Source of the DNA: an uncultured Flavobacteriaceae bacterium
Lineage (GTDB): Bacteria; Bacteroidota; Bacteroidia; Flavobacteriales; Flavobacteriaceae
NCBI GenBank assembly: GCA_947494695.1
Contig: CANLWB010000005.1
Span: 1-64,000 of the forward strand
Length of the DNA stretch: 64,000 bases
Direction of reading: 5' to 3'
Numbering within the stretch: position 1 is the first letter of the stretch; each line of letters begins with the position of its first letter. The notes beneath the pieces were generated by a model. That model made no database searches, was not told the DNA's origin, and worked only from the letters and a program-made list of their open reading frames with translations. Below are positions 17,601 to 34,834 of this stretch, in pieces. A program made the position numbers and the translations under genes.

Positions 17601-17691
17601 ACCATTCGTCGACACTTAATTGCCATCCACCGACAGTAAATTTGAGTCAAACGAAATCAAAGCTTTAACCTTTTTCTTTGTTTTACCTTAC
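17601..17691 (+). promoter_or_regulatory. LytTR-like site 1: three 21-bp-spaced half-sites and -7-like box, upstream of the H-NOX operon
   Basis: ACCATTCGTCGACAC (17601-17615), GCCATCCACCGACAG (17622-17636) and TGAGTCAAACGAAAT (17643-17657) are direct repeats starting 21 bp apart. TACCTTAC at 17684-17691, exactly 41 bp after the start of the last half-site, is in the place of a -7 element. The first half-site closely resembles the known AlgR (LytTR) target CCGTTCGTC. Same architecture at five other places in the window. Confidence 0.6.
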
Positions 17692-17716: not shown

Positions 17717-18127
17717 ATGAAAAATTTAAATATTCTTTTAATAGAAGACGACATGATCGAAGTTATGAAGTTAAACCGTGTGGTTGCTTCATTAGAATTA
17801 CCTCATAAGATCACCGAGGCCAACAATGGAGAGGAAGCTCTTAAAGTTTTGGAGCAAAAGGACAGATTGCCGGATATTATCTTATTAGATCTTAACATGC
17901 CAAAAATTAATGGGATCGAATTTTTATCCATTTTGAAAAATGATGAACGGATGAAATATATTCCAACCATCGTATTAACAACTTCAAGTAATCAAAAGGA
18001 TCTATTAGAGTGCTACAGAATAGGTATTGCAGGCTACGTCTTAAAGCCATTAAAATACGAAGACTACACATCAAAGTTAGAAAGACTGCTTTGTTATTGG
18101 AGCATTAATGAATTAATAAAAGTATAG
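17717..18127 (+). CDS. CheY-like single-domain response regulator (Rcp1 type)
   Basis: A 136-aa receiver-only protein. The acidic pair is Asp11-Asp12 in LLIEDD, the phosphoacceptor is Asp58 in IILLDLNMPKING, followed by Thr in IVLTTSS and Lys in YVLKPL; all catalytic residues are intact. It resembles the phytochrome-type Rcp1 regulators that partner hybrid or PAS-GAF kinases. It has no output domain, so it probably acts by protein contact or as a phosphate sink in a phosphorelay. The H-NOX gene begins 104 bp downstream and the kinase follows, so it is the likely partner. ATG 17717 chosen because the domain begins there. Preceded by LytTR-like site 1. Confidence 0.85.
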   Translation: MKNLNILLIEDDMIEVMKLNRVVASLELPHKITEANNGEEALKVLEQKDRLPDIILLDLNMPKINGIEFLSILKNDERMKYIPTIVLTTSSNQKDLLECYRIGIAGYVLKPLKYEDYTSKLERLLCYWSINELIKV

Positions 18128-18231
18128 GGAGTTCTCCATTTAAAATTTTTATCGTCCTGTATATCTTAGAGGGTATGGAAATGTCCTTTGAGATGAACCG
18201 GATAGGTTAGTATTACATAAATATAAAACAG

Positions 18232-18771
18232 ATGAAAGGTATCGTTTTTACAGAGTTTTTAGACTTAGTTGAAGATAAGTTTGGTTTAGAAATGGTTGAT
18301 GAAATCATAGAAAAATCAAATTTAGAATCTGGAGGTGTGTATACGGCTGTTGGAACTTACGCATTTTCTGAAATGTTACAACTGTTGCGACATTTAAGTA
18401 AGAATACAAATATTTCTATTGATAATTTACTTCTCGTGTATGCCGAGCATTTTTTTGATGTTTTAAAAAGGAATTATGGCGATCTGTTATCTAGATATAC
18501 CAACCCTATAGAGATGTTGTCGTCTATTGAAAATCATATCCATGTAGAAGTTAAAAAGATTTACCCCGAAGCCGAATTACCAACCTTTGAAGTTTTGGAA
18601 AAAACAGAAGATTCTCTTGTTATGGTTTACAAATCAAGTAGAGCCATGCATCATTTTGGGTTGGGGTTAATGAATAAAACATTCGAGTACTTTAAGGCTA
18701 AAGCTACTATAGAACTCGAAAAAATAAAAGAAGACGGTACAGAAGTTAAGTTTATGATTAATAAAAACTAA
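18232..18771 (+). CDS. H-NOX haem-based nitric-oxide sensor
   Basis: A 179-aa cytoplasmic haem protein of the H-NOX (HNOB) family. The proximal haem ligand is His102 in IENHIHVEV and the porphyrin-propionate motif Y-x-S-x-R is Tyr133-Ser135-Arg137, all at the canonical positions. There is no distal tyrosine near 140 (the sequence is AMHHFG), which in this family predicts NO binding and exclusion of O2. The gene overlaps the following histidine kinase by one base (TAATGA), the standard H-NOX/kinase pairing in which NO-bound H-NOX alters kinase autophosphorylation. Length is normal (about 180 aa). Confidence 0.93.
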   Translation: MKGIVFTEFLDLVEDKFGLEMVDEIIEKSNLESGGVYTAVGTYAFSEMLQLLRHLSKNTNISIDNLLLVYAEHFFDVLKRNYGDLLSRYTNPIEMLSSIENHIHVEVKKIYPEAELPTFEVLEKTEDSLVMVYKSSRAMHHFGLGLMNKTFEYFKAKATIELEKIKEDGTEVKFMINKN

Positions 18772-20855
18772 TGATAAAGAGTCAGGTTGACATAATGGAA
18801 CGTGCACTTGCTCGCGAAAGAGCAGCAAGAAAAGAGGCCGAAAGAATTCTGGAGAATAAATCTTTGCAGCTCTACAATACATCTCATGAATTAAAAGTAT
18901 CAAACCAAAAATTAGAAGAGCTTTTAGAAGAGAGAACATCTCAACTTCAAGGTGTTTTCGAAAATATTTACGATGCATACGTTATTATAGATTTAAATGG
19001 TAATGCATTAAAAATGAATAATGCCGCAACAGAGCTTTTTGGTTACGATATTAACAAGGAAACTCTCAATGTTATGAACCTATTACATAAAGAAGATGTT
19101 AAGTATGCATTTGATTCTTTTCAGCAACTCACAGAACAAGGCTTTTTTACCGATTTTACAACTAGGATTGTAACCAGAAACAAAGGTGTTAGATGGGTTC
19201 ATATTAATGCCAGTATCATTTTTAATAGACGAAAAATGCCTATTGGAGCTCAGGGAGTCGTTAGAGATATTACCGATGCCAAGTATACGGCAGAACTCAT
19301 GGAGCAACAAAAGAAAGAGTTAGATGTTATTGTAGAAAACTCATCTTTAGGTATTATTTTAATTCGAGATAAAAAAATTGTAAGAACCAATGAGGCCATT
19401 AAAAAACTATTGGGGTATTCTGAAAAAGAGCTGATAAAACTAACCATTGAAGATATTTCTTTTAAAGAAGAAATGGAGGAGTCTAAGAAATTCCTTATGA
19501 AGATAGAGGCTGGAAAAATAGATGAATACACTGTTACTAAACGTTATAAAAAGAAGAGTGGCTCGGTGGTCTGGGCAAGAACTAATGTAAGTGCTGTAAG
19601 GAATGGACAAGGAAAAGTAATGTTCTTGGTCGCTCATATTGAGGATATCACTGCCGAAAGAAAGAGTTCATTAATTATTGAAATGATTAATGATGTAGCA
19701 AAATCCATTCTGGGTAAGATGGATATTTATGAAATTGCATGGGAGATTGCCGATAATATTGCAGACTATTTAAATACAGATAATTGCACGATATATCTGG
19801 TAGATCAGGAACAAAAAACCTTGGAACAAATAGCAACATATAGTGAAAAGGTAGATATTAAAAAAGCGACATTTACAATAGGAGTGGGCGTAGCAGGAAC
19901 TGTGGCAAAAACAGGAAAAGCAGAAATTATTAAAAATACAGAATTAGAAGAGCGCTATGTGGCTAGAGGGGCAAATTTGTTATCAAAAATTGCGGTTCCA
20001 ATAATTAGTGATGGAGAAGTTATAGGAGTTATCGATTCTGAACACAGAAAGAGAAATTATTACACCAAAGAACATCAAAGTACACTTGAAAGTGTTGCCG
20101 GTTTAGTGGCTATGCAGTTTAAAAGTGCTATTAATTTAAGAGAGCGCCAATTGGCAGAATCCAAAAATAAGGAGCTTTTAGATGAATTGGGTAAAAGTAA
20201 TGAAGAACTACAGGAATATGCCCATATAGTGTCGCACGATTTAAAATCTCCATTACGCAGTATTAATACATTGGTTACCTGGATTAAAGAGGATACCAAA
20301 GGACAGTTGGATGAAACCAGTGTACAAAATTTTGGATTAATAGAATCTACCTTAGAGAAAATGGAGATGCTTATATCTGATGTTTTGATGTATTCAAGTG
20401 TTGGGACAAAAGATGAAGAAGGGCAAATGACAGATGTTAATGCTTTGTTAGAAGACTTAAAACAAATTTTGTACGTGCCAGAACATATTAGTATAGAGAT
20501 TCTAAAACCAATGCCCACTGTTCCGGGGGATAAGGTGAAACTTCAGCAGTTGTTTCAAAACTTAATAAGTAATGCTGTGAAGTTTAACGATAAGAAAAAT
20601 GGACGTATTGAAATTGGTTTCCATGAAGAACAATCGTTCTATCAATTTATGGTAAAGGATAACGGTATTGGTATTAAAAAAGAATATCATGATAAAATCT
20701 TCAAGATATTTCAATCCCTTAATGTTAGCAAAGATTCTACAGGAGTAGGGCTGTCTATAGTTAAAAAAATTGTTGACTTATATGGTGGAAATGTCTGGGT
20801 AGAAAGCACATTTGGGAAGGGGACCACGTTCTATTTTACATTATCCAAAGGGTGA
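18771..20855 (+). CDS. H-NOX-associated histidine kinase (coiled coil-PAS-PAS-GAF-HisKA-HATPase)
   Basis: A 694-aa soluble sensor kinase without transmembrane segments. It has an N-terminal coiled coil to about 60, then two PAS domains (about 60-175 and 180-300; the first ends PIGAQGVVRDITD, the second VAHIEDITAE), a GAF domain (about 310-455) and a second coiled coil. The dimerisation domain carries the phosphoacceptor His489 in VSHDLKSPLRS, and the ATPase domain shows N (NLISNAVKF), G1 (DNGIGI) and G2 (STGVGLSI) boxes. Coupling to the H-NOX gene makes NO the most likely primary input; PAS and GAF may add redox or ligand sensing. The kinase core is very like that of the kinase at 22454, suggesting shared phosphotransfer partners. 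A strong terminator follows. Confidence 0.92.
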   Translation: MIKSQVDIMERALARERAARKEAERILENKSLQLYNTSHELKVSNQKLEELLEERTSQLQGVFENIYDAYVIIDLNGNALKMNNAATELFGYDINKETLNVMNLLHKEDVKYAFDSFQQLTEQGFFTDFTTRIVTRNKGVRWVHINASIIFNRRKMPIGAQGVVRDITDAKYTAELMEQQKKELDVIVENSSLGIILIRDKKIVRTNEAIKKLLGYSEKELIKLTIEDISFKEEMEESKKFLMKIEAGKIDEYTVTKRYKKKSGSVVWARTNVSAVRNGQGKVMFLVAHIEDITAERKSSLIIEMINDVAKSILGKMDIYEIAWEIADNIADYLNTDNCTIYLVDQEQKTLEQIATYSEKVDIKKATFTIGVGVAGTVAKTGKAEIIKNTELEERYVARGANLLSKIAVPIISDGEVIGVIDSEHRKRNYYTKEHQSTLESVAGLVAMQFKSAINLRERQLAESKNKELLDELGKSNEELQEYAHIVSHDLKSPLRSINTLVTWIKEDTKGQLDETSVQNFGLIESTLEKMEMLISDVLMYSSVGTKDEEGQMTDVNALLEDLKQILYVPEHISIEILKPMPTVPGDKVKLQQLFQNLISNAVKFNDKKNGRIEIGFHEEQSFYQFMVKDNGIGIKKEYHDKIFKIFQSLNVSKDSTGVGLSIVKKIVDLYGGNVWVESTFGKGTTFYFTLSKG

Positions 20856-20929
20856 CTTCCGTGAAACAGCCATGTGAATTGGTATGAGCTTTACCAGAGA
20901 CTCAAATACTATAGTTAAATCTTTTTTTT

Positions 20930-20963
20930 TCTTACAAAAGCATCTTATTTTGTAAGATTTTTT
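20930..20963 (+). terminator. Strong intrinsic terminator after the H-NOX operon
   Basis: TCTTACAAAA (20930-20939) and TTTTGTAAGA (20948-20957) form a perfect 10-bp stem with an 8-nt loop, followed by six T. A T tract also precedes the stem, so it may work on both strands. The following 350 bp up to the FIST gene are AT-rich and hold no gene that I can see. Confidence 0.8.
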
Positions 20964-21219
20964 CATTTGTAAACACCATGTTTCTGTAAGGATTTATCAT
21001 ATAATGCTGCTATTTCTTATCTAAAACGTGAATATTTAGTGTGACGAGCTTAATTATCAATTCCTAATATATTTTGTTTTAAATAATAGGATTCAATGTA
21101 ATGTATTGCTATGTATTGTGTTATGTGCTAATTGTTTTTATTGGTTGATGATATAGAAATTAGTTAATAAAAAATCAGAAATTTTTTCCTACATAATTTG
21201 AAAATATTAAAAAAAATAT

Positions 21220-21269
21220 TACATTCGTTAAAACGTTCAAAAAACGTGATGAAATGCACATGTGTTTTG
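21220..21269 (+). promoter_or_regulatory. Weak LytTR-like half-site and -7-like box upstream of the FIST gene
   Basis: TACATTCGTTAAAAC (21220-21234) matches the window's best half-site ACCATTCGTCGACAC at 10 of 15 positions. TGTGTTTTG begins at 21261, exactly 41 bp later. A second half-site 21 bp away is not evident, so this may be a low-affinity site or chance. Confidence 0.3.
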
Positions 21270-21320
21270 AATAAAGTAAAATTGCATCTAAATAAGTTCA
21301 ATTTTTAAAAAAAAAGACAT

Positions 21321-22454
21321 ATGAAAATTACTCAACTAAAAAAGCACAAAGATCAAGAGTGGACATATCTGGGAGAGAAGCAGGATTTAACCAACCCGCT
21401 GGTTCTTGTATTTGGAAACCGGTTTATGCTGGAGTCACCATCAATTTGTGAGGAAATAAAAGATTTATTTCCCGATGGACATCTGGTGTTTGGCTCTACA
21501 AGTGGTGATATTACGGGGGAGTCTGTAGACGATGATAGTGTAACGATTACCGCAGTCGAGTTTGAAAAGAGTAAATTCCAGATAAAAACCAGTAATGTTT
21601 TAACATCAGATTTAGATAGTTATAAAACCGGTAAAGAACTTATAGAACAATTTCCATTAGAAGGACTAAAGTTTGTCTTTGTAGTATCGGAAGGCAGTTT
21701 AATTAATGGTAGTGAGTTGGCAAAAGGAATGAGTTCTGCTACAACCGAGAACCTTCTAATTACAGGAGGGTTATGTGGTGACGCAGCGCGTTTTGAGAAA
21801 ACGGTGGCGTCGTATAACGAAAACCCGAGGACTGGTGAGATTGTAGCGATTGGCTTTTATGGAGATACCATTGAGGCGACGTTCTCCATTCATGGCGGGT
21901 GGACGCCTTTTGGGCCAGAACGTGTGGTTACCAAATCTGAATCCAATGTGTTATATGAACTTGATAACCAGCCAGCGTTAGATTTGTATAAGAAATATTT
22001 AGGAGAGAAATCTAAAGATCTTCCGGCAGCGGCATTATTATATCCCTTGAACGTACAATCGACAGATGGCGAGGAATCTATTGTCCGAACCATTTTAAAT
22101 ATCAATGAAGAGGAAAATGCTATGATTTTGGCTGGAGATATAGAAGAGAATGACAAAGTACAGCTCATGATGACCAATATAGATAATATTGCAAATGCAT
22201 CAGAACGGGCAGCAAAACAAGCTCTAGAACTAAGAAAGACCAAACCAGAGCTAGCTATATTAGTGAGTTGTATTGGTAGGAAACTGGTTCTAGATCAACG
22301 TGTAGAAGAGGAAGTAGAAGAGGTTATAGAAGTTATTGGTGAAGACACAGCAGTTTGTGGTTTTTATTCTTATGGAGAAATAGCTCCTTTTCATGGATAT
22401 ATCTCATGCCAGCTACATAACCAAACCATGGCCATAACCTTAATTAGTGAATAA
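21321..22454 (+). CDS. FIST-domain sensor protein (NosP-like)
   Basis: A 377-aa cytoplasmic protein with the FIST_N domain (about 25-220; LVFGSTSGDI near 56, ENLLITGGLCGDAARF near 145) and FIST_C domain (about 225-365; LYPLNVQ..., CGFYSYGEIAPF near 345). FIST proteins are small-ligand sensors; the NosP subgroup binds haem and NO and is encoded beside a histidine kinase. Here the kinase gene overlaps by one base (TAATGA), followed by Hpt and response regulator genes, matching the NosP-NahK arrangement. Haem binding cannot be proven from sequence because the ligand motif is not fixed; amino-acid sensing is the alternative suggested for other FIST proteins. Confidence 0.85.
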   Translation: MKITQLKKHKDQEWTYLGEKQDLTNPLVLVFGNRFMLESPSICEEIKDLFPDGHLVFGSTSGDITGESVDDDSVTITAVEFEKSKFQIKTSNVLTSDLDSYKTGKELIEQFPLEGLKFVFVVSEGSLINGSELAKGMSSATTENLLITGGLCGDAARFEKTVASYNENPRTGEIVAIGFYGDTIEATFSIHGGWTPFGPERVVTKSESNVLYELDNQPALDLYKKYLGEKSKDLPAAALLYPLNVQSTDGEESIVRTILNINEEENAMILAGDIEENDKVQLMMTNIDNIANASERAAKQALELRKTKPELAILVSCIGRKLVLDQRVEEEVEEVIEVIGEDTAVCGFYSYGEIAPFHGYISCQLHNQTMAITLISE

Positions 22455-23497
22455 TGAACTCATTGCTTAAACGACAAATTCGAAAATATCTGGACGAAGC
22501 CCCATCGGAAAATGTAGAATTGAATGGCTTTGTCGATGCGATAAACAGATCTTATAACAATTTTGATGAGCAGTTTTCGATGCTTCAACGTTCTATGTCT
22601 ATTAGTTCCGAAGAATTGTATAATGTTAATAGAAGGCTACAAAAAGAATCGGAAGCCCAACAAAATGTTATTAATAAACTCATAGCGGTTATTGACACCC
22701 TTAAGTTTTATGAGTTGGAGAATGGACAGGCCGATATTTTGGAACTTGATGGTTTAAAACTCGTAGAGTTTATTGACAATCAAACTAAAGAAATTGTTGA
22801 GATGAATAAGCAAAGAGAAAAGCTTATGGAAGAGTTGGAATATCAAAATCAGGAACTTAGTGAATATGCTCATATGGTATCTCACGATTTGAAATCTCCA
22901 CTCCGAAGTATTGATACGCTTACGTCTTGGTTAAAAGGGGATTATGAAGATCAACTGGATGAAAATGGAAAAGAAAACTTAAGATTAATACGAACCAATG
23001 TTGGAAAAATGGATGCCCTAATTACGGGTATTTTAGAATACTCAACCATTGGAAAGACACAAATTGAGTTTTATGATGTGAACCTCAACGTTATATTAAA
23101 AGATATTTTAAGCATTATATCCAAACCCGATAATTTTACTATAAAAGTAGATAAACTACCTGTTGTACAAGGGGATAAATATAGGTTACAGCAGCTATTT
23201 CAGAACTTGATTGATAATGCGATCAAGTACAATGATAAAGAATATGGAGAAGTACATATTGGGGTAGAAGACCAGAAAGACTATTGGCAGTTTAGCGTAA
23301 AAGACAATGGCAAAGGCGTAGACAAAACGTACCATAAAAAAATCTTTGAGACGTTCGAAAAACTTGAAAATACTGCCGATTCAACAGGAATAGGATTATC
23401 CATAGTGAAAAAAATAGTTGATTTGTTTAAGGGGAAAGTTTGGATTGAGTCTGAAGTGGGGAAAGGAACCACATTTTATTTTACATTTAAAAAGTAA
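22454..23497 (+). CDS. Histidine kinase partner of the FIST protein (NahK-like)
   Basis: A 347-aa soluble kinase with no membrane segment. Residues 1-125 are mostly helical and coiled coil (SMLQRSMSISSEELYNVNRR), a region typical of kinases that take input from a separate sensor protein. The phosphoacceptor is His144 in VSHDLKSPLRS; the ATPase has N (NLIDNAIKYND), G1 (DNGKGV) and G2 (STGIGLSIVKK) boxes. Its catalytic core is strikingly similar to that of the H-NOX kinase 2 kb upstream. Followed after two bases by an Hpt gene, so phosphate probably passes through a relay, not by direct transfer. Confidence 0.9.
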   Translation: MNSLLKRQIRKYLDEAPSENVELNGFVDAINRSYNNFDEQFSMLQRSMSISSEELYNVNRRLQKESEAQQNVINKLIAVIDTLKFYELENGQADILELDGLKLVEFIDNQTKEIVEMNKQREKLMEELEYQNQELSEYAHMVSHDLKSPLRSIDTLTSWLKGDYEDQLDENGKENLRLIRTNVGKMDALITGILEYSTIGKTQIEFYDVNLNVILKDILSIISKPDNFTIKVDKLPVVQGDKYRLQQLFQNLIDNAIKYNDKEYGEVHIGVEDQKDYWQFSVKDNGKGVDKTYHKKIFETFEKLENTADSTGIGLSIVKKIVDLFKGKVWIESEVGKGTTFYFTFKK

Positions 23498-23499
23498 CT

Positions 23500-23817
23500 A
23501 TGGAACAACCTAACTTGTCATATATCGAAAGCATGTCTGGAGGAAACGAAGCCTTTGAAAAAAAAATAATAGGCATTATTAAGGTTGAATTTCCTGAAGA
23601 AAAACATGTCTATTTCGAGAATATCGGAGCGAATAACTTCAAGGCAGCCGCAGAGAATGTGCACAAGTTAAAACATAAGATTAGTATTTTAGGATTAGAG
23701 AGGAGTTATGCACTTGCAGATGATTTTGAAACCAATTTGAAAAATGAGAGTACTACTGGAAAAGATGAGTTTGATGCCATCTTACATCTGATGACAGATT
23801 TTTTAGAGACAATATAA
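23500..23817 (+). CDS. Hpt-domain phosphotransfer protein
   Basis: A 105-aa helical protein. The phosphotransfer motif is VHKLKHKISILGL with the active His at residue 55 and the conserved Lys three residues later, as in HPt four-helix bundles. No other domain is present. It lies between the kinase (2-bp gap) and the LytTR regulator (6-bp gap), so it probably shuttles phosphate from that kinase, and perhaps from the similar H-NOX kinase, to the receivers nearby. Confidence 0.88.
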   Translation: MEQPNLSYIESMSGGNEAFEKKIIGIIKVEFPEEKHVYFENIGANNFKAAAENVHKLKHKISILGLERSYALADDFETNLKNESTTGKDEFDAILHLMTDFLETI

Positions 23818-23823
23818 CCACCT

Positions 23824-24537
23824 ATGAATTGTATAATTATTGATGACGAAACTACCGCAAGAGCAATTATCATTCAGTTATGCTCAAATATTCCACGGGT
23901 AACTGTTCTTGAAGAGTTTTCCAATGCAATTCAAGCTATTAAATACTTAAATCAGAATGATGTTGACCTCATTCTTCTGGATATACACATGCCAGACTTT
24001 ACCGGGTTTGATTTTATACAAACTCTTAAAAACCCACCAAAGGTTGTTTTAATGACTTCCGATGCGAATTTGGCACTCGAAGCCTTTGAGTACGACTGTA
24101 TTGTAGATTATTTGGTAAAACCCATAACACTTCCACGCTTAGAAAAAGCCTTCCATAAAGCCGATCTTACCAGAATAAAGCGCGTGGAAAATGGAGTTTC
24201 AGTAAAAAAGAACACCTTATCCACAGGAAACGATCTGTACATCAATATAGATAGACGACTTATAAAGATTGATATTCCCAGTATATATTTGGTCGAAGCC
24301 AAAGGAGATTACATTCATGTAAAAACCGAAGACCAAAATTATACAGTACATTCTACACTAAAAAAGATTGAAGGGAAATTACCAGATTCATTATTTCTTA
24401 AAGTACATCGTTCCTACATTATCAATGTAAATAAAATTATAGATATAGAGGATAATAGCGTGCTTATTAAAAAAGATGTTATCCCTGTAAGTCGTTCGAA
24501 CAGGCCCGAACTCATGAAGCGACTAAACTTATTGTAA
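23824..24537 (+). CDS. LytTR-family response regulator
   Basis: A 237-aa DNA-binding response regulator. Receiver at 1-120 with Asp7-Asp8, phosphoacceptor Asp53 in LILLDIHMPDFTGF, Thr/Ser in VLMTSD and Lys in YLVKPI. The LytTR domain is at about 140-237 (IYLVEAKGDYIHVKTED, LKVHRSYIINVNKI, VSRSNRPELM), which reads direct-repeat sites spaced two helical turns apart. It is the terminal gene of the NosP-like operon and so its transcriptional output. The 21-bp-spaced AlgR-like half-sites found at several promoters in this window are natural candidates for its targets; this is inference. No obvious terminator follows. Confidence 0.92.
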   Translation: MNCIIIDDETTARAIIIQLCSNIPRVTVLEEFSNAIQAIKYLNQNDVDLILLDIHMPDFTGFDFIQTLKNPPKVVLMTSDANLALEAFEYDCIVDYLVKPITLPRLEKAFHKADLTRIKRVENGVSVKKNTLSTGNDLYINIDRRLIKIDIPSIYLVEAKGDYIHVKTEDQNYTVHSTLKKIEGKLPDSLFLKVHRSYIINVNKIIDIEDNSVLIKKDVIPVSRSNRPELMKRLNLL

Positions 24538-24764: not shown

Positions 24765-24834
24765 TCCATTTAACTATACTTGATTTACATCAAACGAAAA
24801 TAAAAAATCTGTGAGCTCATTAGAAGTAGATTTG
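24765..24834 (+). promoter_or_regulatory. Promoter of the small T9SS gene: LytTR-like site 6, perfect FNR-type box, -7 element
   Basis: TTGATTTACATCAA at 24780-24793 fits the FNR consensus TTGAT-N4-ATCAA at every position. It overlaps a pair of LytTR-like half-sites 21 bp apart, TCCATTTAACTATAC (24765-24779) and TACATCAAACGAAAA (24786-24800). TAGATTTG at 24827-24834 is an exact -7 element, starting 41 bp after the second half-site and 40.5 bp from the FNR-box centre. The rest of the 317-bp gap 24538-24854 has no convincing gene. Confidence 0.5.
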
Positions 24835-24854: not shown

Positions 24855-25244
24855 ATGAAGAAACTACCACTACTAATAAGCATGATGATTACAGGTGTAA
24901 TTGGTGACTACTCTAGCTATAAACCTTTTGAAATATCAATTAGCAGTTTAGCCTTTAGCCATACATCACTTTTAGACCTGGAAGATGCGGTAATAGAGAA
25001 GCTCACACTTCAAAATTATCCAAATCCATTTACTACAAGTACCACTATTAAGCTTATAAAGGCTTCCGTATTTGTTAATATTAAAGTTGTTGATATGGTT
25101 GGAAGAATCGTTGGTACTCAACGGCTAGAACCAATAAACAAACAGGTCGTTTATAATGCCATGAATTTATCAAAAGGCATTTATAAGTACGTAATAAAAA
25201 ATGACTTTAATGAAAACTATTCCGGTGCCTTTGTTATCGAATAA
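24855..25244 (+). CDS. Very small T9SS-exported protein (type A sorting domain)
   Basis: A 129-aa protein starting with an export signal (KKLPLLISMMITGVIG) and ending in a typical T9SS type A C-terminal sorting domain: LQNYPNPFTTSTTIKL at 56-71, a beta-rich VNIKVVDMVGRIVG, then LSKGIYKYVIKND. Sorting domains are about 75-80 aa, so only about 35 residues lie between signal and sorting domain. It therefore seems to have almost no cargo; it could be a small surface peptide, an adaptor, or the remnant of a larger secreted protein. Its promoter has the same layout as that of the large T9SS gene downstream. Confidence 0.75.
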   Translation: MKKLPLLISMMITGVIGDYSSYKPFEISISSLAFSHTSLLDLEDAVIEKLTLQNYPNPFTTSTTIKLIKASVFVNIKVVDMVGRIVGTQRLEPINKQVVYNAMNLSKGIYKYVIKNDFNENYSGAFVIE

Positions 25245-25291: not shown

Positions 25292-25382
25292 GCGTTTCAT
25301 CGATTAAAAATGTATTTTCGTCGACACTTTTTTTGAATTCACCGAAAAATATGAAGGAAAAATCCTTAATAATATAGATTTG
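25292..25382 (+). promoter_or_regulatory. LytTR-like site 3: three 21-bp-spaced half-sites and exact -7 box, upstream of the large T9SS gene
   Basis: Half-sites at 25292-25306, 25313-25327 and 25334-25348 carry TTCATCGA, TTCGTCGA and TTCACCGA in phase, each 21 bp after the last. TAGATTTG at 25375-25382 fits TAnnTTTG and starts exactly 41 bp after the start of the third half-site. The ATG follows 26 bp after the -7 start, a short leader as at 24855 and 31636. Confidence 0.62.
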
Positions 25383-25400
25383 TAATATAAATCAACTATC

Positions 25401-27965
25401 ATGAAAAAAAACCTACTCTTACTATTTCTTTTTGTAATACGTATGGGAGCTCAAGAGCCCTTTAACTGTGATTACAATGCGTATTTATTTCAATACAACG
25501 ATGTGTATGCCATAGATTTGGCATCTGGAAGCTCCTATGTTGTTGCTACAGATATTACTCCGGGGAATATTAACGGAGCGGGCTACAATCCAACAGATGG
25601 ATATATTTGGGGCTCATTAAGCACGCCTTCTAAAACCATTGTTAGAATTGGTAAAGACTTTTCTACAACGACTTTTTATATAGATGAATTTTCATCATCC
25701 GGCCGCTACATAGGAGATGTAAGTGTCAATGGGGTATATTATCTAAAGGGAGGAGGAACAACGTATTATACGGTGGACGTCGACCCGGCTTCTCCAAATT
25801 ATGGAACGCATATAGCCACCGGAACACTATCTCAAAGTTTAAGTATTCACGACTGGGCTTTTAATGCTGTTGATGGGAAACTTTATACTGTAGAAAAAAA
25901 TTCGAACAAATTATATCGTATAGATCCCGACGCCGGAACTATCCTTGATTTGGGTGAAGTTCCTATTTTATCAGGTTTAAATTATACGTATGGTGCTGTT
26001 TATTTTGATGCTTCAGGACGTTTTTATGTGTCTGCTAATCAAACTGGAACTATTTATGTCATTCAGAACGTTCAAGATCTAACAGGGTCGAACGGCATGG
26101 ATTCTAACCTATTTGCTTTTGGACCATCTAGTTCTTCAAATGATGGAGCACGTTGTCCTACAGCTCCAGTACCTCAAGAAGATTGTATTAATGGAGTTGA
26201 TGATGATGGAGATGGCCTTGTAGATTGTGATGACCCATCATGTTCTGGTCAAGGGGTATGTCCTGTTATAGAACCACCAACTTCTGGTGGAGATGGAGGA
26301 GGTTTAGAAAGTAATAACCGACTTTCCGAACTTATAAATAAACGAAACTTTAATAGAGCCAAGCGCAATCATAAGTTTGACAAATCTTCAGCAAAGCGTG
26401 TTTTAAAACTAGCTAAATATGGTAAAAAAACAAGTAAAGGAACGCAGCAGTTATCGGATTTTATCCCATTAACAACTATAAATGAAGATTTGGCGGTAGA
26501 ATCAACACCTTCAGACCTATTAAACATTACCAATGCCACAGATATCTATTCTGTAGATTACATGAGAGATAATAAAAGTGTCGCAACAGTTCTTGTTCTT
26601 AAAACAGAGAATGGTGTTTACGAGCATACTAAATACATATGTGATAGATTATTAGGAGCCGAATTACTTTCTGTATCAACGATTCAAATAAGAGATCACA
26701 GTTTTATAAGAGCGTTAATTAAAAATACACAAGGTGGCTTGGAGTTCGCTTTAAGTTTATCGGCTAAACCCGTAAATAATAATGCCAATTTTGATATAGA
26801 AAGTCATTGGAATTTAGACGGCTATGAAGCTAATGTACCATACTATAATTTCCAAATATGGTCTAACTCTTTAGATGATTTGTTAAGACTCGGAGAGGAA
26901 GTGGTGCGTCTGTTAGAGGTACAAAAATCTATTAATACTTATAATAGCTCATCTCCACCAACGGTATTCGTTAAGAAAGGAACATATAACAAAGGTAAAT
27001 TAGATTTACAAATTATAAATACCAATAGGAGTGAGGCCGTTAATTTTAACGCAGGTGTAAGAACGACTGAAACATACAATACCGAAAATATAACGTCTAC
27101 TTTAGAATTGGACGGAAGTTACATCACAAATGTAGAGCTTGATGCAGGAAACCTATTCGATATAGGATTTAGAATTGGAGATGGAGTACAGGTACCTGAT
27201 GATTTATTTATTTCTGATGGAGCTTGGGGATACGATGACACGGCAGAAAGTACTCAGGTAACCACCTACAACGTGGAGCCCAATAAAGAGAACTTTGAAG
27301 AGGGAGAATATCCCATAGAACGTAATATTGAGCTTTCGGGGAGTACTGGAGAATACGTTTCTGTGTACCGTGCTTTAACACCGAGATATCATCCCATAGA
27401 TTTAACAACATATAAGAGTTTGCAATTTAAGGCGAAAGGAACGGGAACTTTAAGTGTAAGCTTGATTAAGGATAGTATCAATAATTGGGGAGAGCACTAT
27501 AAAAAGACTATTGTATTAACCGATGTTTTAGAAGATTACAGTATTCCTTTTACCGAATTTACATCTACAATCGGTGAAGCATTTAATGCTAATGATATCA
27601 CAACTGTGGTCTTTACCATGCATTCTGAAACCGGAGGTGTAGAAACCAAAGACATGTCTGTACAGCAATTACGTTTCTCTGAAAGTAGCGAAAGTGCACT
27701 GGTGGCTTTGGGAGATAAGACCTATGCCTCACCTAATCCAATGGGATATGAAACATTATTACACTTTAGAAGTAAGATCGCAGAACCTGTTAAGCTATAT
27801 GTTTATAACCAAATAGGAGGACTGGCCAAGAAGATGACGTATGAAGCTGTTGAAGGTAAAAACGAAATAAAACTGGACAGAATAGGGTTGAACCTTGGAC
27901 TGTATTTCTGTCAGATAAAGAGTAACACCAAAACTTACGATACAATAAAATTACTCATTGAGTGA
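25401..27965 (+). CDS. Large T9SS-exported surface protein with propeller-like and carbohydrate-binding-like regions
   Basis: An 854-aa secreted protein. Signal peptide at 1-18 (LLLLFLFVIRMGAQ). Residues about 25-260 look like a beta-propeller of short repeats (DGYIWGSLSTPSKTIVRIG, DGKLYTVEKNSNKLYRID). An acidic Ca-binding-like segment follows at about 264-285 (CINGVDDDGDGLVDCDDPSC). About 635-770 resembles a jelly-roll carbohydrate-binding module (YKSLQFKAKGTGTLSVSLI). The C-terminal 80 residues are a type A sorting domain (YASPNPMGYETLLHFRS, ending KTYDTIKLLIE) for T9SS export and surface anchoring. No catalytic motif is recognised. A matrix-associated or adhesive role fits the nearby polysaccharide genes, by inference. 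Confidence 0.8.
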   Translation: MKKNLLLLFLFVIRMGAQEPFNCDYNAYLFQYNDVYAIDLASGSSYVVATDITPGNINGAGYNPTDGYIWGSLSTPSKTIVRIGKDFSTTTFYIDEFSSSGRYIGDVSVNGVYYLKGGGTTYYTVDVDPASPNYGTHIATGTLSQSLSIHDWAFNAVDGKLYTVEKNSNKLYRIDPDAGTILDLGEVPILSGLNYTYGAVYFDASGRFYVSANQTGTIYVIQNVQDLTGSNGMDSNLFAFGPSSSSNDGARCPTAPVPQEDCINGVDDDGDGLVDCDDPSCSGQGVCPVIEPPTSGGDGGGLESNNRLSELINKRNFNRAKRNHKFDKSSAKRVLKLAKYGKKTSKGTQQLSDFIPLTTINEDLAVESTPSDLLNITNATDIYSVDYMRDNKSVATVLVLKTENGVYEHTKYICDRLLGAELLSVSTIQIRDHSFIRALIKNTQGGLEFALSLSAKPVNNNANFDIESHWNLDGYEANVPYYNFQIWSNSLDDLLRLGEEVVRLLEVQKSINTYNSSSPPTVFVKKGTYNKGKLDLQIINTNRSEAVNFNAGVRTTETYNTENITSTLELDGSYITNVELDAGNLFDIGFRIGDGVQVPDDLFISDGAWGYDDTAESTQVTTYNVEPNKENFEEGEYPIERNIELSGSTGEYVSVYRALTPRYHPIDLTTYKSLQFKAKGTGTLSVSLIKDSINNWGEHYKKTIVLTDVLEDYSIPFTEFTSTIGEAFNANDITTVVFTMHSETGGVETKDMSVQQLRFSESSESALVALGDKTYASPNPMGYETLLHFRSKIAEPVKLYVYNQIGGLAKKMTYEAVEGKNEIKLDRIGLNLGLYFCQIKSNTKTYDTIKLLIE

Positions 27966-29445: not shown

Positions 29446-31506
29446 TTATTTCTTAAAGCCTGGCGCCTTATCAATATACCATTTTAAGCGAAGCCCAATC
29501 TCGGTGAACGTAAAACCAGCAGCAGTAGCAGAAGCAATATTACTTCGGGTACCGTAAATGTTTAATAGGGCACGTTCAGAAAACATATACCCCAGTTTCC
29601 CTTGTGCGCGATAAGTACTTTGTTTAGGATCCTTTTCAATAAACTGAAAACCAGTGGCAACGGTTAATTCATAAAACCATGCTTTTGGTTTTGTAATCTG
29701 CTCACTTTTTATCACGTTTACAAAGACTTCGGCAGCATTAAACATCCCGGGGCTAAAGTAGATTGCGGGAACTTGATTTTCAAAAGTAATGTATTGGTAA
29801 TTAAGGCCGGCTTTCAATGCTGGTTTAGCCATTATATTATAGTAAAGTGAGGTAAATAACAAATGCCTGGAATTATTGTCGTTTTGCATGGTATAAAAGT
29901 ACTGGGTAAACCACCCCAAATTAAAATTCGTACTAATATTATAATTGGCGTATAGATGGCTCATAATAATTTCACGATCAAGGAGGTCGGCATTAAAGCT
30001 TTGGATTTCCCGTTTAAAGCCAATGTCCAGAATTTGTAATTTCGCAGGTTTAATGTGAAATGAAAAATCTGTTAAAACCTGTGTATAATCATCGGTTTCG
30101 GCTTTGGCTGAGGTCATGCCTACAGTACCTTTAAAGGTGATATTAGGCAGTAGGCGATAAGCAAAACCTAACGCAGCGGTGTTAGATGTTGCTTTATTGT
30201 TGGTTACCGAATTACTCGTGGTCCTATACCCATAATTTAATAACCACCTAAATTTCATAGAAATAGGAAACTCGACGTTCGCATGATATGAATAGGCTTC
30301 GTTATTACCATTATCGAAAGAATATGAGCCTTTGGCTTCTAAAAACGGCGTAAAACTCCAATCTAAATCTTTAATAAATTGAGCCGCATCTTTTTGCTTT
30401 TTATAAAAGAGAAGTGTATTGTCTGCAGATTGGTATGCCCCTTTGTAAAGTCCCAAAGCTTTTAGAGTATTCGCTTTTCCCAAGTTACCATCAAAAGAAG
30501 CACTGTCATTAACAAGAATACGATCGTAGTCCTTAAGACTCTTTTTAAAATTACTTTTATAGATATTTAAGGTGGCTCGTAAAGCTAAAATCCAGTTTTG
30601 GTTTGGTGTTTTACGATTGAGTTCGTCTATTAAAATTTCGGCATCCTTAAACTTTTTGTTCCAGATAAGTGCCTGTATGTAACGTTCCTGTGTTCGATTT
30701 ACAAGTGTTGTATCTTTTAGAGCAGGAATGGTTTCATAGGCTTCGGTACTTAGTTTTAAAGCTGTTTTTTCTTTATGTTTTAAATGGCTTACCAGTGCAA
30801 GTCCGTTTAAAGACATGGTTTTATTGGACTTATCCTGGCTTAGCGTGTTATAAACATCTGTAGCTTTATCAAATTCCTGTGTAATAAGATACAAATTAGC
30901 CATATTAGTTAATGTGGCTTTATCATTTTCGAATAAGACCAAGTTCTCTTTTAAAAGAGTTTCAGCCTTTTCATAATGTTGTTGCTGCTGGTTTTTATAA
31001 GCATATCCTAGATAGATGTACTTTTTAGAAGTTAGTGCCCCCAAGTTTCCAGGTGTGATGTCAAGAGCCTTATTTACAAAGGTAAGGGCCTCTTTATATT
31101 GTTTAAGATTCGATAATGTGTTGGCGTACCCCAAAAGTGCTGTGAAGCTTTTATCGTCTTCTTTAAGAATGGTTTCATAATAATGTTTTGCATCATCAAA
31201 CTTTTTACCCCAAAGCAACGATTCTGCGTAATTTAGTTTTACTTCAAAGTCATCAGGATACTTACTTAGTAAATCCTTATATAAGGATGTCGCTTTGTTT
31301 GGGTCTTCGCTTAGACCTACAGCACGTCCATAACAAAGTATGGCCGTTTTGTTATTTGGGTGGTCTTTTAGGATGGTTTCAAAAAAGGGTACTGCAGCTT
31401 TAAAGTTACCAGCTTCAAGTAGTTTAAAGCCTTCTTGCATGTTTTGAGCTGCACAAATAACGCTAATAAACAAGAACGTTAAGGTTAAATAAGATTTGAG
31501 TTTCAT
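29446..31506 (-). CDS. TPR-repeat protein with C-terminal outer-membrane beta-barrel (YaiO/PelB-like)
   Basis: A 686-aa envelope protein. Signal peptide at 1-20 (LTLTFLFISVICAAQ). Residues about 22-390 are roughly ten tetratricopeptide repeats (AGNFKAAVPFFETILKDHP and so on). Residues about 395-686 are alternating amphipathic strands of an outer-membrane beta-barrel of the YaiO type (EAYSYHANVEFPISMKFRW, ending GLRLKWYID). This TPR-plus-barrel design is that of polysaccharide export porins such as PelB and PgaA/BcsC, so it is a plausible exit for the polymer made downstream; this is inference. Divergent from the STAS genes across LytTR-like site 2. Confidence 0.8.
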   Translation of the reverse strand: MKLKSYLTLTFLFISVICAAQNMQEGFKLLEAGNFKAAVPFFETILKDHPNNKTAILCYGRAVGLSEDPNKATSLYKDLLSKYPDDFEVKLNYAESLLWGKKFDDAKHYYETILKEDDKSFTALLGYANTLSNLKQYKEALTFVNKALDITPGNLGALTSKKYIYLGYAYKNQQQQHYEKAETLLKENLVLFENDKATLTNMANLYLITQEFDKATDVYNTLSQDKSNKTMSLNGLALVSHLKHKEKTALKLSTEAYETIPALKDTTLVNRTQERYIQALIWNKKFKDAEILIDELNRKTPNQNWILALRATLNIYKSNFKKSLKDYDRILVNDSASFDGNLGKANTLKALGLYKGAYQSADNTLLFYKKQKDAAQFIKDLDWSFTPFLEAKGSYSFDNGNNEAYSYHANVEFPISMKFRWLLNYGYRTTSNSVTNNKATSNTAALGFAYRLLPNITFKGTVGMTSAKAETDDYTQVLTDFSFHIKPAKLQILDIGFKREIQSFNADLLDREIIMSHLYANYNISTNFNLGWFTQYFYTMQNDNNSRHLLFTSLYYNIMAKPALKAGLNYQYITFENQVPAIYFSPGMFNAAEVFVNVIKSEQITKPKAWFYELTVATGFQFIEKDPKQSTYRAQGKLGYMFSERALLNIYGTRSNIASATAAGFTFTEIGLRLKWYIDKAPGFKK

Positions 31507-31546: not shown

Positions 31547-31616
31547 ACCATTCGTCGATACAAACTTGTATTTGGTCGAGCTTGGCAATTTTTTTAGATT
31601 TTTTTTGACATCTTTA
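31547..31616 (+). promoter_or_regulatory. LytTR-like site 2 and -7-like box between the TPR and STAS genes
   Basis: ACCATTCGTCGATAC (31547-31561) is followed 21 bp later by GTATTTGGTCGAGCT (31568-31582), with TTCGTCGA and TTGGTCGA in register. CATCTTTA at 31609-31616, exactly 41 bp after the second half-site start, is a near -7 element, and the STAS ATG lies 27 bp after its start. The site also lies 41 bp from the divergent TPR start and could serve both. Confidence 0.6.
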
Positions 31617-31635: not shown

Positions 31636-31935
31636 ATGAATTTTAAAATAGAAATTATGGCTTTAAAAATTACAGAACTAAACGGTACTTTCTTAATAGA
31701 AGGAAGTATTAATTCCACCACTGCAATAAACTTTAAAAATCATTTCGAAACCATCTTAGACATTGATAAGCGATTGACCATAGATATCGATAATGTCACC
31801 GAGATTGATACCACCGGAATGGAAACCCTAAGAGAACTTTACTCTAAGGCGATACAGCATAATAGACCATTTTATATCGTTGGTACAGGATGTAAGGAAA
31901 TCTATGATGATTTCTTACACACATACGCGGCTTAA
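31636..31935 (+). CDS. STAS-domain protein (anti-sigma-factor antagonist type)
   Basis: A 99-aa single STAS domain. The strand-loop-helix around IDNVTEIDTTGMETLREL (about 50-67) corresponds to the phosphorylation loop of SpoIIAA (DSSG), with Thr60 in the place of the phosphorylated Ser. Such proteins release anti-sigma factors or act as regulatory phosphoproteins under a PP2C phosphatase and a kinase. Neither partner is encoded here. It is followed after 18 bp by a second STAS gene. ATG at 31657 is an alternative start aligned with the paralogue; 31636 is preferred because it lies 27 bp from the -7 box as in the sister promoters. Confidence 0.82.
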   Translation: MNFKIEIMALKITELNGTFLIEGSINSTTAINFKNHFETILDIDKRLTIDIDNVTEIDTTGMETLRELYSKAIQHNRPFYIVGTGCKEIYDDFLHTYAA

Positions 31936-31953
31936 ATTTCAAATGTATTCGAT

Positions 31954-32256
31954 ATGAATCTTGAAATTAAAAATAACCAGGGCGTTTATGAAATTCATGG
32001 TGATTTTATAAACGAACAAACTAACCAGGTTGCTATTTACTTTAATAAGCTCTTAGATACCTACTACGAGGTCGTTGTATGCTTAAAACATGTAACTAAA
32101 GTAGATGAAACAGCTTTAAATGTTATGAAGTTTATTTCTGATAAGGCAAAAAGAAGAAGTAAAGTACTCTTTGTTCTTGGAGAAGAAAATCTAAGTATTT
32201 GCGAGCAATTTAAACACGCCAATCTAAATAGTTTATTTAAAAAAGACTATCATTAA
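31954..32256 (+). CDS. Second STAS-like protein, divergent phosphorylation loop
   Basis: A 100-aa paralogue of the preceding protein with the same strand/helix order (VYEIHGDFINEQTNQVAIYF, then YEVVVCLKHVTKVDETALNVMKF). The loop DTTG of the first protein is DETA here: Thr53 sits at the phospho-site but the following Gly is lost. It may form a heterodimer or act as a constitutive partner. Cotranscription with the first gene is likely (18-bp gap). Partners are unknown; control of polysaccharide or gliding functions is inferred only from position. Confidence 0.7.
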   Translation: MNLEIKNNQGVYEIHGDFINEQTNQVAIYFNKLLDTYYEVVVCLKHVTKVDETALNVMKFISDKAKRRSKVLFVLGEENLSICEQFKHANLNSLFKKDYH

Positions 32257-33451: not shown

Positions 33452-33522
33452 ACCATTCGTCTAAGGTAAATGTCCATCTAACTACAATGGGTTATTTTTC
33501 TCTTATATAATACTGATATTTA
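33452..33522 (+). promoter_or_regulatory. LytTR-like site 4 upstream of the first GT4 gene
   Basis: ACCATTCGTCTAAGG (33452-33466) is followed 21 bp later by TCCATCTAACTACAA (33473-33487). GATATTTA at 33515-33522 is a -7-like box 42 bp from the second half-site start. The leader to the ATG at 33617 is about 90 nt, longer than at the sister promoters. Confidence 0.55.
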
Positions 33523-33616: not shown

Positions 33617-34834
33617 ATGAAATTAGCAATAGTAACATCGTACCCGCCCAGTAAAGTTACGCTAAATGAATATGCATTTCACTTAGTGAAAAACTTAAGA
33701 CAAACCAAAGACATTACAGAGATCATCTTATTAACAGATAAAACAGATGTTCAAAAAGATTTACAGTTTGAAAAAGACGGTTGCAAAATTACCTTGAAAG
33801 AATGTTGGTCTTATAACAGTTACAAGAATATTATAAATGTGACCAGAGCAATCGGTCAAACAAAACCAGATGCCGTATTGTTTAATTTACACTTTTTAAA
33901 GTTTGGAAATAAAAAGATTCCAGCTGCTTTAGGCTTAATGCTTCCTTTGGTTTGTAAAATAAAGAACATTCCAAGTGTTGTTTTATTGCACAACATAGTA
34001 GAGCTTGTTGACCTGGAAAGTACAGGATTTGCAAAAAGCAAGCTTAAGCAAAAAGTTTACAGATTTATGGGAAGTAGAGTAACACGTTTAATACTTAGGG
34101 CAGATATTGTGGCCGTTACTTTGAAAAAATATGCAGATGTTTTAGAAACAAAATATAATGCTAAGAATGTGAAATTAATTCCTCATGGTACGTTTGAAAT
34201 CATAGAAGAACCTGGATTTAATATGCCATTCAAACCATTTAGAGTTTTAGCTTTTGGAAAGTTTGGAACCTATAAAAGGGTAGAAGCTCTCATTGAAGCC
34301 GTAGAAAAAATTAGAAAGTACTCGAACCTTAAAATCGAGGTTATAATTGCCGGAACAGATAACCCCGATACTCCCGGGTATTTAGATTCTGTAAAACAGG
34401 CATATAGTGATGTAGAGGGGATTACTTTTACAGGTTATGTAAAAGAGAAAAACATCTCTAAGTTATTTAATGAGAGTTCGGTTGTTGTATTGCCTTATAC
34501 ATCTTTAACAGGAAGCTCGGGCGTGTTACATCAGGCAGGGAGCTATGGAAAAGCTGTGGTTATTCCAGAATTGGCAGACTTAAAGCAAGTTGTACATGAA
34601 GAAGGTTATAGAGGTGAGTTTTTCGAACCTAATAGTGTGATTAGTTTAGCTTTAGCCATTCAAAAGATTCTTGAAGATAATGTGTACAGAGTCGAGCTGG
34701 AAAAAGCCAATTACAAAGCAGCTACAAATTACCCGATGTCAAAGATTGCCAACATGTATTTAACGGCATTTCAGTCCGCTATTTTGGAAAGAAAAAAGAG
34801 AGAAATATCTCAAGGAAATCAAGCTGTAGCGTAG
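33617..34834 (+). CDS. Glycosyltransferase family 4 protein (copy 1)
   Basis: A 405-aa GT-B-fold retaining glycosyltransferase of the GT4 type, probably transferring a sugar from a nucleotide donor to a growing exopolysaccharide or its lipid carrier on the cytoplasmic side. N-terminal acceptor domain starts LAIVTSYPPSKVTLNEYAFH. The C-terminal donor domain has VLAFGKFGTYKRVEALIEA near 210, IIAGTDNPDTPGYL near 248, and VVLPYTSLTGSSGVLHQAGSYGK near 290, where the second Glu of the usual E-x7-E motif is not evident. A paralogue with the same N-terminus is encoded at 37736. A strong terminator follows. Confidence 0.88.
   Translation: MKLAIVTSYPPSKVTLNEYAFHLVKNLRQTKDITEIILLTDKTDVQKDLQFEKDGCKITLKECWSYNSYKNIINVTRAIGQTKPDAVLFNLHFLKFGNKKIPAALGLMLPLVCKIKNIPSVVLLHNIVELVDLESTGFAKSKLKQKVYRFMGSRVTRLILRADIVAVTLKKYADVLETKYNAKNVKLIPHGTFEIIEEPGFNMPFKPFRVLAFGKFGTYKRVEALIEAVEKIRKYSNLKIEVIIAGTDNPDTPGYLDSVKQAYSDVEGITFTGYVKEKNISKLFNESSVVVLPYTSLTGSSGVLHQAGSYGKAVVIPELADLKQVVHEEGYRGEFFEPNSVISLALAIQKILEDNVYRVELEKANYKAATNYPMSKIANMYLTAFQSAILERKKREISQGNQAVA

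Follow-up and report, generated by a model that had tools for sequence, protein, structure and literature searches.

The question raised by this locus is whether two predicted gas sensors that lie side by side, each with its own histidine kinase, belong to two signalling systems or to one, and what such a system would control. The locus lies in a stretch of 64,000 nucleotides from an uncultured Flavobacteriaceae bacterium (GCA_947494695.1, contig CANLWB010000005.1, positions 1 to 64,000), hereafter the window. It encodes an H-NOX protein, a FIST protein, two kinases (HK1 and HK2), a single-domain receiver (RR1), a histidine phosphotransfer protein (Hpt) and a receiver-LytTR response regulator (LytTR). 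We propose, with a probability of about 0.68, that these genes encode a single multistep phosphorelay with two inputs, of which the FIST-HK2 pair is optional, and that this relay is wired to a regulon for surface polysaccharide. A sequence-only reading of the same DNA had described two nitric oxide (NO) sensing cassettes and overlooked the output, which we predict to be a LytTR regulon on the neighbouring exopolysaccharide cluster.

One seven-gene unit

The genes from 17717 to 24537 form one unit of seven, all on the plus strand and in the order RR1, H-NOX, HK1, FIST, HK2, Hpt and LytTR; the sequence-only reading had placed all seven with correct coordinates. RR1 (17717..18127; Response_reg 78.8 bits), the proposed first acceptor of the relay, precedes H-NOX in 95 of 98 tabulated loci. 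It is followed by H-NOX, a predicted haem NO sensor (18232..18771; HNOB 137.3 bits, cut-off 25.5), and by HK1 (18771..20855), whose start overlaps the H-NOX stop and whose Pfam architecture is PAS-PAS-GAF-HisKA-HATPase. After a spacer (20856..21320) come the FIST protein, a putative second, NosP-like sensor (21321..22454; FIST 145.7 and FIST_C 129.8 bits), and HK2 (22454..23497), a HisKA-HATPase kinase and HK1 paralogue in which no sensor domain was recognised by the Pfam scan. By Pfam and gene order, each sensor is accompanied by a kinase of its own, as had been claimed. The unit ends with the one Hpt that had also been named, carrying H55 (23500..23817; Pfam Hpt 20.5 bits, below the cut-off of 24.6), and with LytTR (23824..24537; receiver 65.9, LytTR 77.2 bits), the proposed output. 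All parts of a relay are encoded according to Pfam and alignment, namely kinase His, receiver Asp, Hpt His and output Asp. The phospho-Asp of RR1 is kept in 95/95 homologues, H55 in all 88 Hpt homologues found by profile, and the phospho-Asp D53 of LytTR in 88/88.

The distance between H-NOX and HK1 is at most 15 bp in 56/56 loci, that between FIST and HK2 at most 50 bp in 55/56, and that between HK1 and FIST at most 50 bp in 54/56, the exceptions being the window and its congener G248. The gap of 0.5 kb that had been noted before FIST is present (465 bp), but it is peculiar to the genus, across which it measures 465-496 bp. The 3' part of this spacer contains a block conserved in the alignment with G248, and a second promoter there is possible. 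No hit above 6 of the LytTR matrix described below was listed in the spacer, and a scan for the -33/-7 Bacteroidota promoter gave none in the window and one incomplete match in G248.

A proposed core relay with an optional second input

The main comparison set comprised 299 genomes of the family, whose genomes and loci bear G and L numbers. H-NOX was found in 105 of them, FIST in 87 and both in 68 (Fisher odds ratio 17, computed with n=300 where the tally is 299). The pair lies within 3 kb on the same strand in 58 genomes, including that of the window, so that the rarity implied by the sequence-only reading did not hold up. FIST is downstream of H-NOX in 57 of these pairs and upstream in one. 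With profiles built in this analysis, the seven genes occur in order in 49/58 loci, and in 52/58 once Hpt is read in three gaps; a Hpt-like frame sits in the gap at four loci where the profile missed it. In one of the 49 (L044) a further gene separates Hpt from LytTR. In the six remaining pair loci, L061, L064 and L073 have no local LytTR, L049 has neither Hpt nor LytTR, L062 is broken and L041 is rearranged.

There were 51 H-NOX matches without a near FIST, and 40 of these loci were fetched. RR1-HNOX-HK-Hpt-LytTR is kept in 34/40, or 35/40 counting L118; outside this pattern are L101, L109, L111, L121 and L124, with L109 and L111 reaching contig ends. Because the five-gene unit persists without FIST, the H-NOX relay includes Hpt and LytTR; since 35/40 FIST-less loci lack only FIST-HK2, this pair is an optional second input. 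The division into "two complete cassettes" had thus cut the locus in the wrong place, as Hpt and LytTR accompany H-NOX where FIST is absent. The core is RR1-H-NOX-HK1-Hpt-LytTR, and FIST-HK2 is a plug-in, an optional insert between HK1 and Hpt. On a three-gene tree of 87 loci, FIST presence switches at least 16 times, compared with at least 21 in 200 shuffles. In G050 and G002, FIST-HK2 is located elsewhere and the five-gene relay is intact; among the listed genes surrounding the relocated pair, no Hpt or receiver was found by profile. The relocated pair of G050 is preceded by a further kinase from the clade of the relay kinases. The distance from H-NOX to FIST clusters in steps of ~390 bp across loci.

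Across the phylum, sampled evenly with 198 genomes, H-NOX was found in 15 and FIST in 47. The two are adjacent in five, four of which belong to the family and one (G448) to another family. A different arrangement occurs in G253 (L041), where a sigma-54-type regulator, FIST and H-NOX lie beside one HNOBA-PAS-kinase-receiver-Hpt hybrid. Its Hpt is likewise below the Pfam cut-off, and the order kinase-receiver-Hpt is fused in one protein. As this kinase is outside the relay clade, H-NOX and FIST seem to have been joined to one relay more than once.

The two putative sensors

The alignment bears out the residues that had been named for H-NOX: H102 is kept in 95/98 homologues, Y133, S135 and R137 of the YxSxR motif in 98/98, 98/98 and 96/98, and there is no distal Tyr. 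F142, five residues past the Arg of the motif, is F, L or M in 98/98 homologues, and we take its position to be that of the distal Tyr140 of Tt H-NOX. By these residues the protein would belong to the NO-selective class, which is marked by the lack of a distal Tyr. Its nearest solved chain is 6bdd, presumably the Kordia algicida protein (289.9 bits over 179/179 residues). The PDB entries 6bdd and 6bde are H-NOX structures that carry the molecule name of an aldolase. At the hinge, residue 71, 48 of 98 homologues have Ala, 45 have Gly and 5 have Ser, and Ala there is presumably tied to hinge flexibility.

The FIST protein reached 65.6 bits against the NCBIfam NosP equivalog, whose cut-off is 450, and NosP as its name was rejected. 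The FIST proteins of Azospirillum and Sulfurovum also missed this cut-off (55.3 and 79.3 bits). As is asked of a NosP, the protein is encoded with a kinase, HK2, that has no recognised sensor domain of its own. H366 is a candidate haem ligand, near-invariant in three FIST groups (55/57, 23/23 and 32/33 members), and C317 is invariant in the groups aligned. H366 is kept equally in FIST groups beside non-NO genes and is therefore no mark of NO sensing. The AlphaFold model (pLDDT 92.6) resembles the FIST domain of human FBXO22 (Z 23.3, root-mean-square deviation 3.3, 262 residues aligned) and, at lower Z, chorismatase and cyclic amide hydrolases, so that a sensor of small ligands is possible. A phmmer search of solved structures with the protein found no FIST relative.

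Other FIST genes were also seen. The second FIST of the window's own genome (L036/L150; contig C8 near 42.4 kb) is 41% identical to the first and pairs with a PAS-kinase-receiver hybrid of ~580 amino acids (aa), a pair that recurs in other genomes. Its four scanned neighbours encode a CBS-domain pyridoxal-phosphate enzyme, DUF2851, a TrkA-type channel and a sodium:alanine symporter, none of them NO genes. At L161-L163 and L165-L173, arrays of two to four FIST genes are followed by a kinase and often by a protein of 1000-1800 aa; this group is distinct, with a median of 22% identity to the window FIST.

The alternative that survives best, and which we regard as a real possibility although not the favoured one, is that FIST senses a small organic ligand or haem and not NO, in which case the relay would integrate NO with a nutrient or haem cue. 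The distance from the NosP cut-off, the fold likeness to chorismatase and cyclic amide hydrolases and the neighbours of the second FIST speak for it. Moreover, in the accessible passages on Burkholderia, hemin-bound NosP inhibits its kinase and NO potentiates the inhibition (PMC12570481). On the other hand, FIST strongly co-occurs with H-NOX (68 of 87 FIST genomes), and in G253 a kinase outside the relay clade also adjoins both FIST and H-NOX. We consider that the FIST protein of the window is probably a haem or gas sensor acting on HK2.

Two paralogous kinases

The sequence-only reading had found the two kinase cores alike, and they are 54% identical. Of the genome's 31 kinase matches, the runner-up by score reaches 36%, and one partial match of 113 residues 38%. 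In their DHp domains HK1 and HK2 share 57% identity in the window, with a median of 52% over 56 loci, while the next best of the genome is at 32%. In a tree of 225 kinases, the relay kinases form a clade of 155 tips (support 0.641; inner node of 153 tips, 0.93) that takes in 57/57 HK1, 56 HK2, 39/40 single kinases and, from L154/L155, three kinases linked to FIST; the 27 other kinases of the window genome all fall outside it. A sub-clade of 58 tips with support 0.906 unites HK2, and the node uniting HK1 is weak (0.299). Judged by sequence, HK1 and HK2 are close paralogues, and a shared partner specificity would be the natural reading. The idea of a shared relay thus appears strengthened by the five-gene loci without FIST, by the paralogy of the kinases and by the intact relays of G050 and G002. 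Recombination between HK1 and HK2 as the usual route of FIST loss was rejected, with 31/40 single kinases falling with HK1 (support 0.299); six single kinases branch weakly beside HK2. The N-terminal part of HK1 varies across loci, with one to four PAS domains and GAF present or absent, and the HK1 type differs even within the genus (G019 and the window).

These data bear on a further alternative, which we regard as unlikely. It holds that there are two separate systems: H-NOX-HK1 would act via protein contacts of RR1, FIST-HK2-Hpt-LytTR would be a relay of its own, and their adjacency would reflect co-transcription. The spacer of 465-496 bp that parts HK1 from FIST in the genus of the window and the position of HK2 directly 5' of Hpt and LytTR would suit such a division. 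It agrees poorly with the 35/40 FIST-less loci that retain the five genes, with the relocated FIST-HK2 of G050 and G002, which has no Hpt or receiver by profile among its listed neighbours, and with the 57% identity of the DHp domains.

A predicted LytTR regulon

Known LytTR sites consist of two direct repeats spaced by about two turns of the helix. The regions 5' of RR1 contain ACCATTCGTCGACACTTAA with a weaker copy 21 bp later. The core box of the repeat, CCATTCGTC, matches the AlgR consensus CCGTTCGTC at 8/9 positions (consensus from the accessible part of PMC4064291). A LytTR domain of 77.2 bits together with a direct repeat of 21 bp points to a site of the AlgR/AgrA type. At least 14/19 repeat matches are reached in 76/95 RR1 upstream regions, while 285 shuffled regions reach 13 at most, the seed word having been taken from the same upstream regions that were scored. 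The repeat before RR1 is independent of FIST, being present in 45/57 loci with it and 31/38 without.

A site matrix was built without the window, and ten shuffled windows gave a maximum score of 12.0. In the 64-kb window five places exceed this maximum, four of them before cluster genes, and all are listed on the plus strand. The highest is the predicted site at 17601..17640 (52.9), 116 bp 5' of the RR1 ATG, with two repeats of ~19 bp and a period of 21 bp. The others are predicted at 25313..25352 (15.7), 88 bp before the gene of an 854-aa protein, where repeat sites recur in related loci; at 31547..31586 (21.4), between divergent TPR and STAS genes; at 33452..33491 (26.3), before the first GT4 gene; and at 44822..44861 (28.2), between the divergent genes of a 1030-aa protein (TM1030) and a GT2. 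A weak candidate at 24765..24804 (plus strand), before the gene of a protein sorted by the type IX secretion system (T9SS), scores 9.6, within the shuffled range. In the window scan no such repeat was seen before the receiver-GT2 gene, the flippase or the genes at 28.1-29.4 kb. Twenty related loci of 35 kb gave 70 hits above 15, all intergenic by an open reading frame (ORF) test that leaves 19.6% of window positions outside ORFs; of these hits, 22 precede RR1, the place on which the matrix was trained, and some are in overlapping registers. Upstream of TM1030, a site above 12 was present in 52/78 tested loci (80 fetched), compared with 3 hits in 509 kb elsewhere. In 38 control FIST loci (537 kb) there were no matrix hits.

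The pattern CCATTCGTCKA occurs nine times in the whole genome, four of them in the window, and its reversed form three times. The copies outside the window (C5:297670, C8:139628, C8:256584, C10:93777 and C13:134445) may be chance or extra members of the regulon. Ten genomes were chosen that have LytTR at the locus, and 31/48 of their motif copies are inside the 35-kb locus. A search that tolerated one mismatch covered nine genomes that had not contributed to the matrix, and in seven of them no motif lay around H-NOX. In G379 a pair of copies with a 21-bp spacing precedes H-NOX and two further copies lie downstream; in G448 copies occur before H-NOX and again 13 and 20 kb beyond it. Genome-wide, motif and reversed control number 9 and 3 in G379, and 11 and 13 in G448.

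It could also be that another LytTR regulator binds the repeat, so that the polysaccharide genes and the relay are co-regulated and NO does not control them. We hold this to be improbable. In its favour, each genome has multiple LytTR paralogues, and G179, which has a LytTR remnant of 40 residues at the locus and a full copy elsewhere (68%), keeps the motif at the H-NOX locus, before RR1 (22.9). In G227, G011 and G172 there is no LytTR gene at the locus; an orthologue with 59-61% identity is elsewhere in all three genomes, and their use as LytTR-less natural controls was rejected on that account. In G172 and G227, motif copies lie within 6 kb of the relocated orthologue and none at the H-NOX locus, which argues for LytTR itself: G172 has four near it, two of them 21 bp apart ~0.75 kb away, and G227 has one ~0.8 kb away. 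Unlike these two, G011 has no copies near its relocated LytTR. We tell the absence of the motif at these three H-NOX loci as re-wiring.

The adjacent exopolysaccharide cluster

Downstream of the operon, the window encodes a secreted protein with a T9SS C-terminal sorting domain (24855..25244, plus; Por_Secre_tail 33.9 bits) and the 854-aa secreted protein (25401..27965, plus; DUF6923), whose T9SS tail is under the Pfam cut-off and just above that of NCBIfam. They are followed by a TPR protein that resembles an outer-membrane polysaccharide export porin (29446..31506, minus; PgaA model 58.4 bits, cut-off 366.65), two STAS-domain proteins (31636..32256, plus; Pfam 39.5 bits and 21.7 bits, the latter below the cut-off of 22.6) and a GT4 glycosyltransferase recognised by Pfam (33617..34834, plus). 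Next is a receiver fused to a GT2 glycosyltransferase (34983..36128, minus; Response_reg 83.5, Glycos_transf_2 80.0 bits). It is the third, fused receiver of the sequence-only reading, which is indeed there and turns out to be fused to a GT2 inside the polysaccharide cluster. It is a plausible relay partner, and the fusion suggests direct phospho-control of the transferase. A polysaccharide flippase (36445..37689, plus; Polysacc_synt_3 48.4 bits) precedes a second GT4-like glycosyltransferase (37736..38917, plus), an ORF similar by eye to the 33617 protein. On the minus strand, 38924..44744 encodes by Pfam a GH5-like glycosidase and an Ig-like protein, whose Ig-like hits are below cut-off, and also TM1030 (41652..44744), which belongs to no Pfam or NCBIfam family. 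A GT2-like ORF, its product named by eye, follows at 44919..45587 (plus). The sequence-only reading had set the sensors between assimilatory and dissimilatory nitrate modules. NapA (from 54.0 kb) and NrfHA (to 62.6 kb) are in the window, but ~30 kb off, with the exopolysaccharide cluster between.

Homologues of the 854-aa protein were found in 24/57 FIST loci and 13/40 FIST-less loci, and those of the TPR protein in 29/57 and 19/40. Among the 20 loci traceable over 35 kb, TPR, GT4 and flippase genes occur in 15 and GH5, Ig-protein and TM1030 genes in 14. The second GT4-like gene has a match in 15/20, and the GT2-like gene at 44919 in 17/20, where it may cross-match the receiver-GT2 gene. The 38 control FIST loci have no 854-aa, TPR, GT4, flippase or GH5 gene and one STAS match. 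TM1030 is present in 78/299 genomes (three partial or broken), 70 of them with H-NOX, and in 59 of these 70 it lies within 32 kb downstream of H-NOX, on the opposite strand in 58. It was confirmed in 186 public stretches and is 90% identical to that of F. aquimarina, by which the window would come from a relative of the genus Flavivirga. The idea that the gene order is chance or general crowding in flavobacterial genomes, for which shared ancestry within the family is the sole point, was rejected as very improbable on the counts of co-occurrence, operon and TM1030 linkage, as the core order persists while FIST-HK2 comes and goes many times, the control loci have neither motif nor these cluster genes, and the adjacent pair with matching motif positions recurs in G448 of another family.

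The proposed relay and its weight

In the single relay that we propose, H-NOX would bind NO and modulate HK1, and FIST, probably a haem or gas sensor too, would modulate HK2. Both kinases would phosphorylate RR1, which would pass the phosphoryl group to Hpt and from there to LytTR. Phosphorylated LytTR would then bind the 21-bp-spaced direct repeats before its own operon and several promoters of the cluster. The sequences show the conserved order of the genes, the paralogy of the kinases, invariant phospho-sites, the motif and where it lies, the link with the cluster and the scarcity of GGDEF; we infer in which order phosphoryl groups are passed, that LytTR recognises the motif, that the product is a polysaccharide, that FIST senses NO and which sign the response has. 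Concerning the sign, we lean towards NO lowering kinase flux and hence polysaccharide output, by analogy with the kinases of Vibrio and Burkholderia. According to the accessible part of PMC8738867, NO-bound NosP of Legionella stimulates its kinase, and therefore the sign is not readable from analogy alone.

GGDEF was found in 5/299 genomes of the family, three of them over the cut-off, whereas 8/14 control genomes were positive. It was not found in the window's own genome, where the output gene is LytTR and where EAL and HD-GYP were not searched genome-wide. Since GGDEF is nearly absent from the family, an output through cyclic di-GMP (c-di-GMP) is unlikely, and it was rejected on the 5/299 count. 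The operon could, as these data suggest, tie NO to surface living without this usual messenger. In the literature searched, as far as its accessible text goes, bacterial biofilms are controlled by NO mostly by way of c-di-GMP or quorum sensing, as described for Proteobacteria. The locus predicts a complete local route from NO to surface polysaccharide in marine Bacteroidota almost without GGDEF enzymes, and this route names a candidate binding site. We find it slightly more likely than not that a c-di-GMP-free switch from NO to the surface is used by Flavobacteriaceae and by one or more further families of the class, with a core relay cis-wired to a dedicated exopolysaccharide regulon and with FIST-HK2 as a second gas-sensor input on that relay that can be exchanged, gained, moved in trans or lost. 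Why cells have two families of NO sensors becomes a testable question, since there are matched genomes in which the same relay occurs with FIST-HK2 or without it.

Several observations weigh against this proposal. The support for relay and regulon is computational throughout; the step from RR1 to Hpt follows from composition, and HK2 might act directly on LytTR. By the curated test the FIST protein is not a NosP, and H366 is equally conserved in FIST groups that have no NO genes among their scanned neighbours. The repeat is missing before RR1 in 14/87 LytTR-bearing loci, none is listed at the locus of the congener G248 in the matrix scan, and 26/78 TM1030 loci have no site, including those of the closest relatives F. 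aquimarina, F. amylovorans and F. aquatica. G227, G011 and G172 keep relay and cluster genes with no local LytTR and no motif above 8. TM1030 occurs without H-NOX in 8 genomes, and in 11 H-NOX genomes it is far away or on another contig. Furthermore, the eight genomes searched have 6 to 18 LytTR-type matches each, and with several paralogues per genome one of them could bind the motif.

Comparison with known systems

No published description of the operon, the LytTR site or the cluster was found in the literature searched, the coverage of which mostly excludes subscription papers. FIST genes near hnox had already been reported in group 1 of a survey of H-NOX genome-neighbourhood networks (PMC8738867), whose section 10 does not mention the order of genes in an operon, an Hpt/LytTR output, a polysaccharide cluster or a binding site. 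In the accessible passages on Vibrio fischeri, HnoX-HahK-SypF(Hpt)-SypG and the syp polysaccharide cluster form a pathway in which NO inhibits the biofilm (PMC12369376). Much as proposed for the window, H-NOX and a kinase share an operon and an Hpt domain leads to a DNA-binding regulator that drives a polysaccharide cluster. In contrast to the window, Hpt is within SypF, with no separate small Hpt and receiver, and the regulator is SypG, not LytTR; those passages contain neither FIST nor a regulator site shared by hnoX and syp. NosP-VpsS-LuxU of V. cholerae and H-NOX-HqsK-LuxU of V. harveyi resemble the window, as far as the available text of PMC6769237 and PMC8738867 shows, in having a sensor on a kinase and a shared phosphotransfer protein. 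They differ in that the sensors belong to different organisms or circuits, the kinases are hybrids and the output is quorum sensing. NosP-NosK-NosR of Burkholderia likewise combines FIST, a kinase without a recognised sensor domain and a receiver in one operon, but its output is an HD-GYP protein tied to c-di-GMP and, in the part of PMC12570481 available, there is no H-NOX in the operon; moreover, the window FIST is not a NosP equivalog. The sites of AlgR in Pseudomonas aeruginosa are often far upstream and the polysaccharide is a different one, with no NO-sensor relay in the accessible passages of PMC4064291, but AlgR is, like the proposed output of the window, a LytTR regulator of an exopolysaccharide (alginate) and has a near-identical core box.

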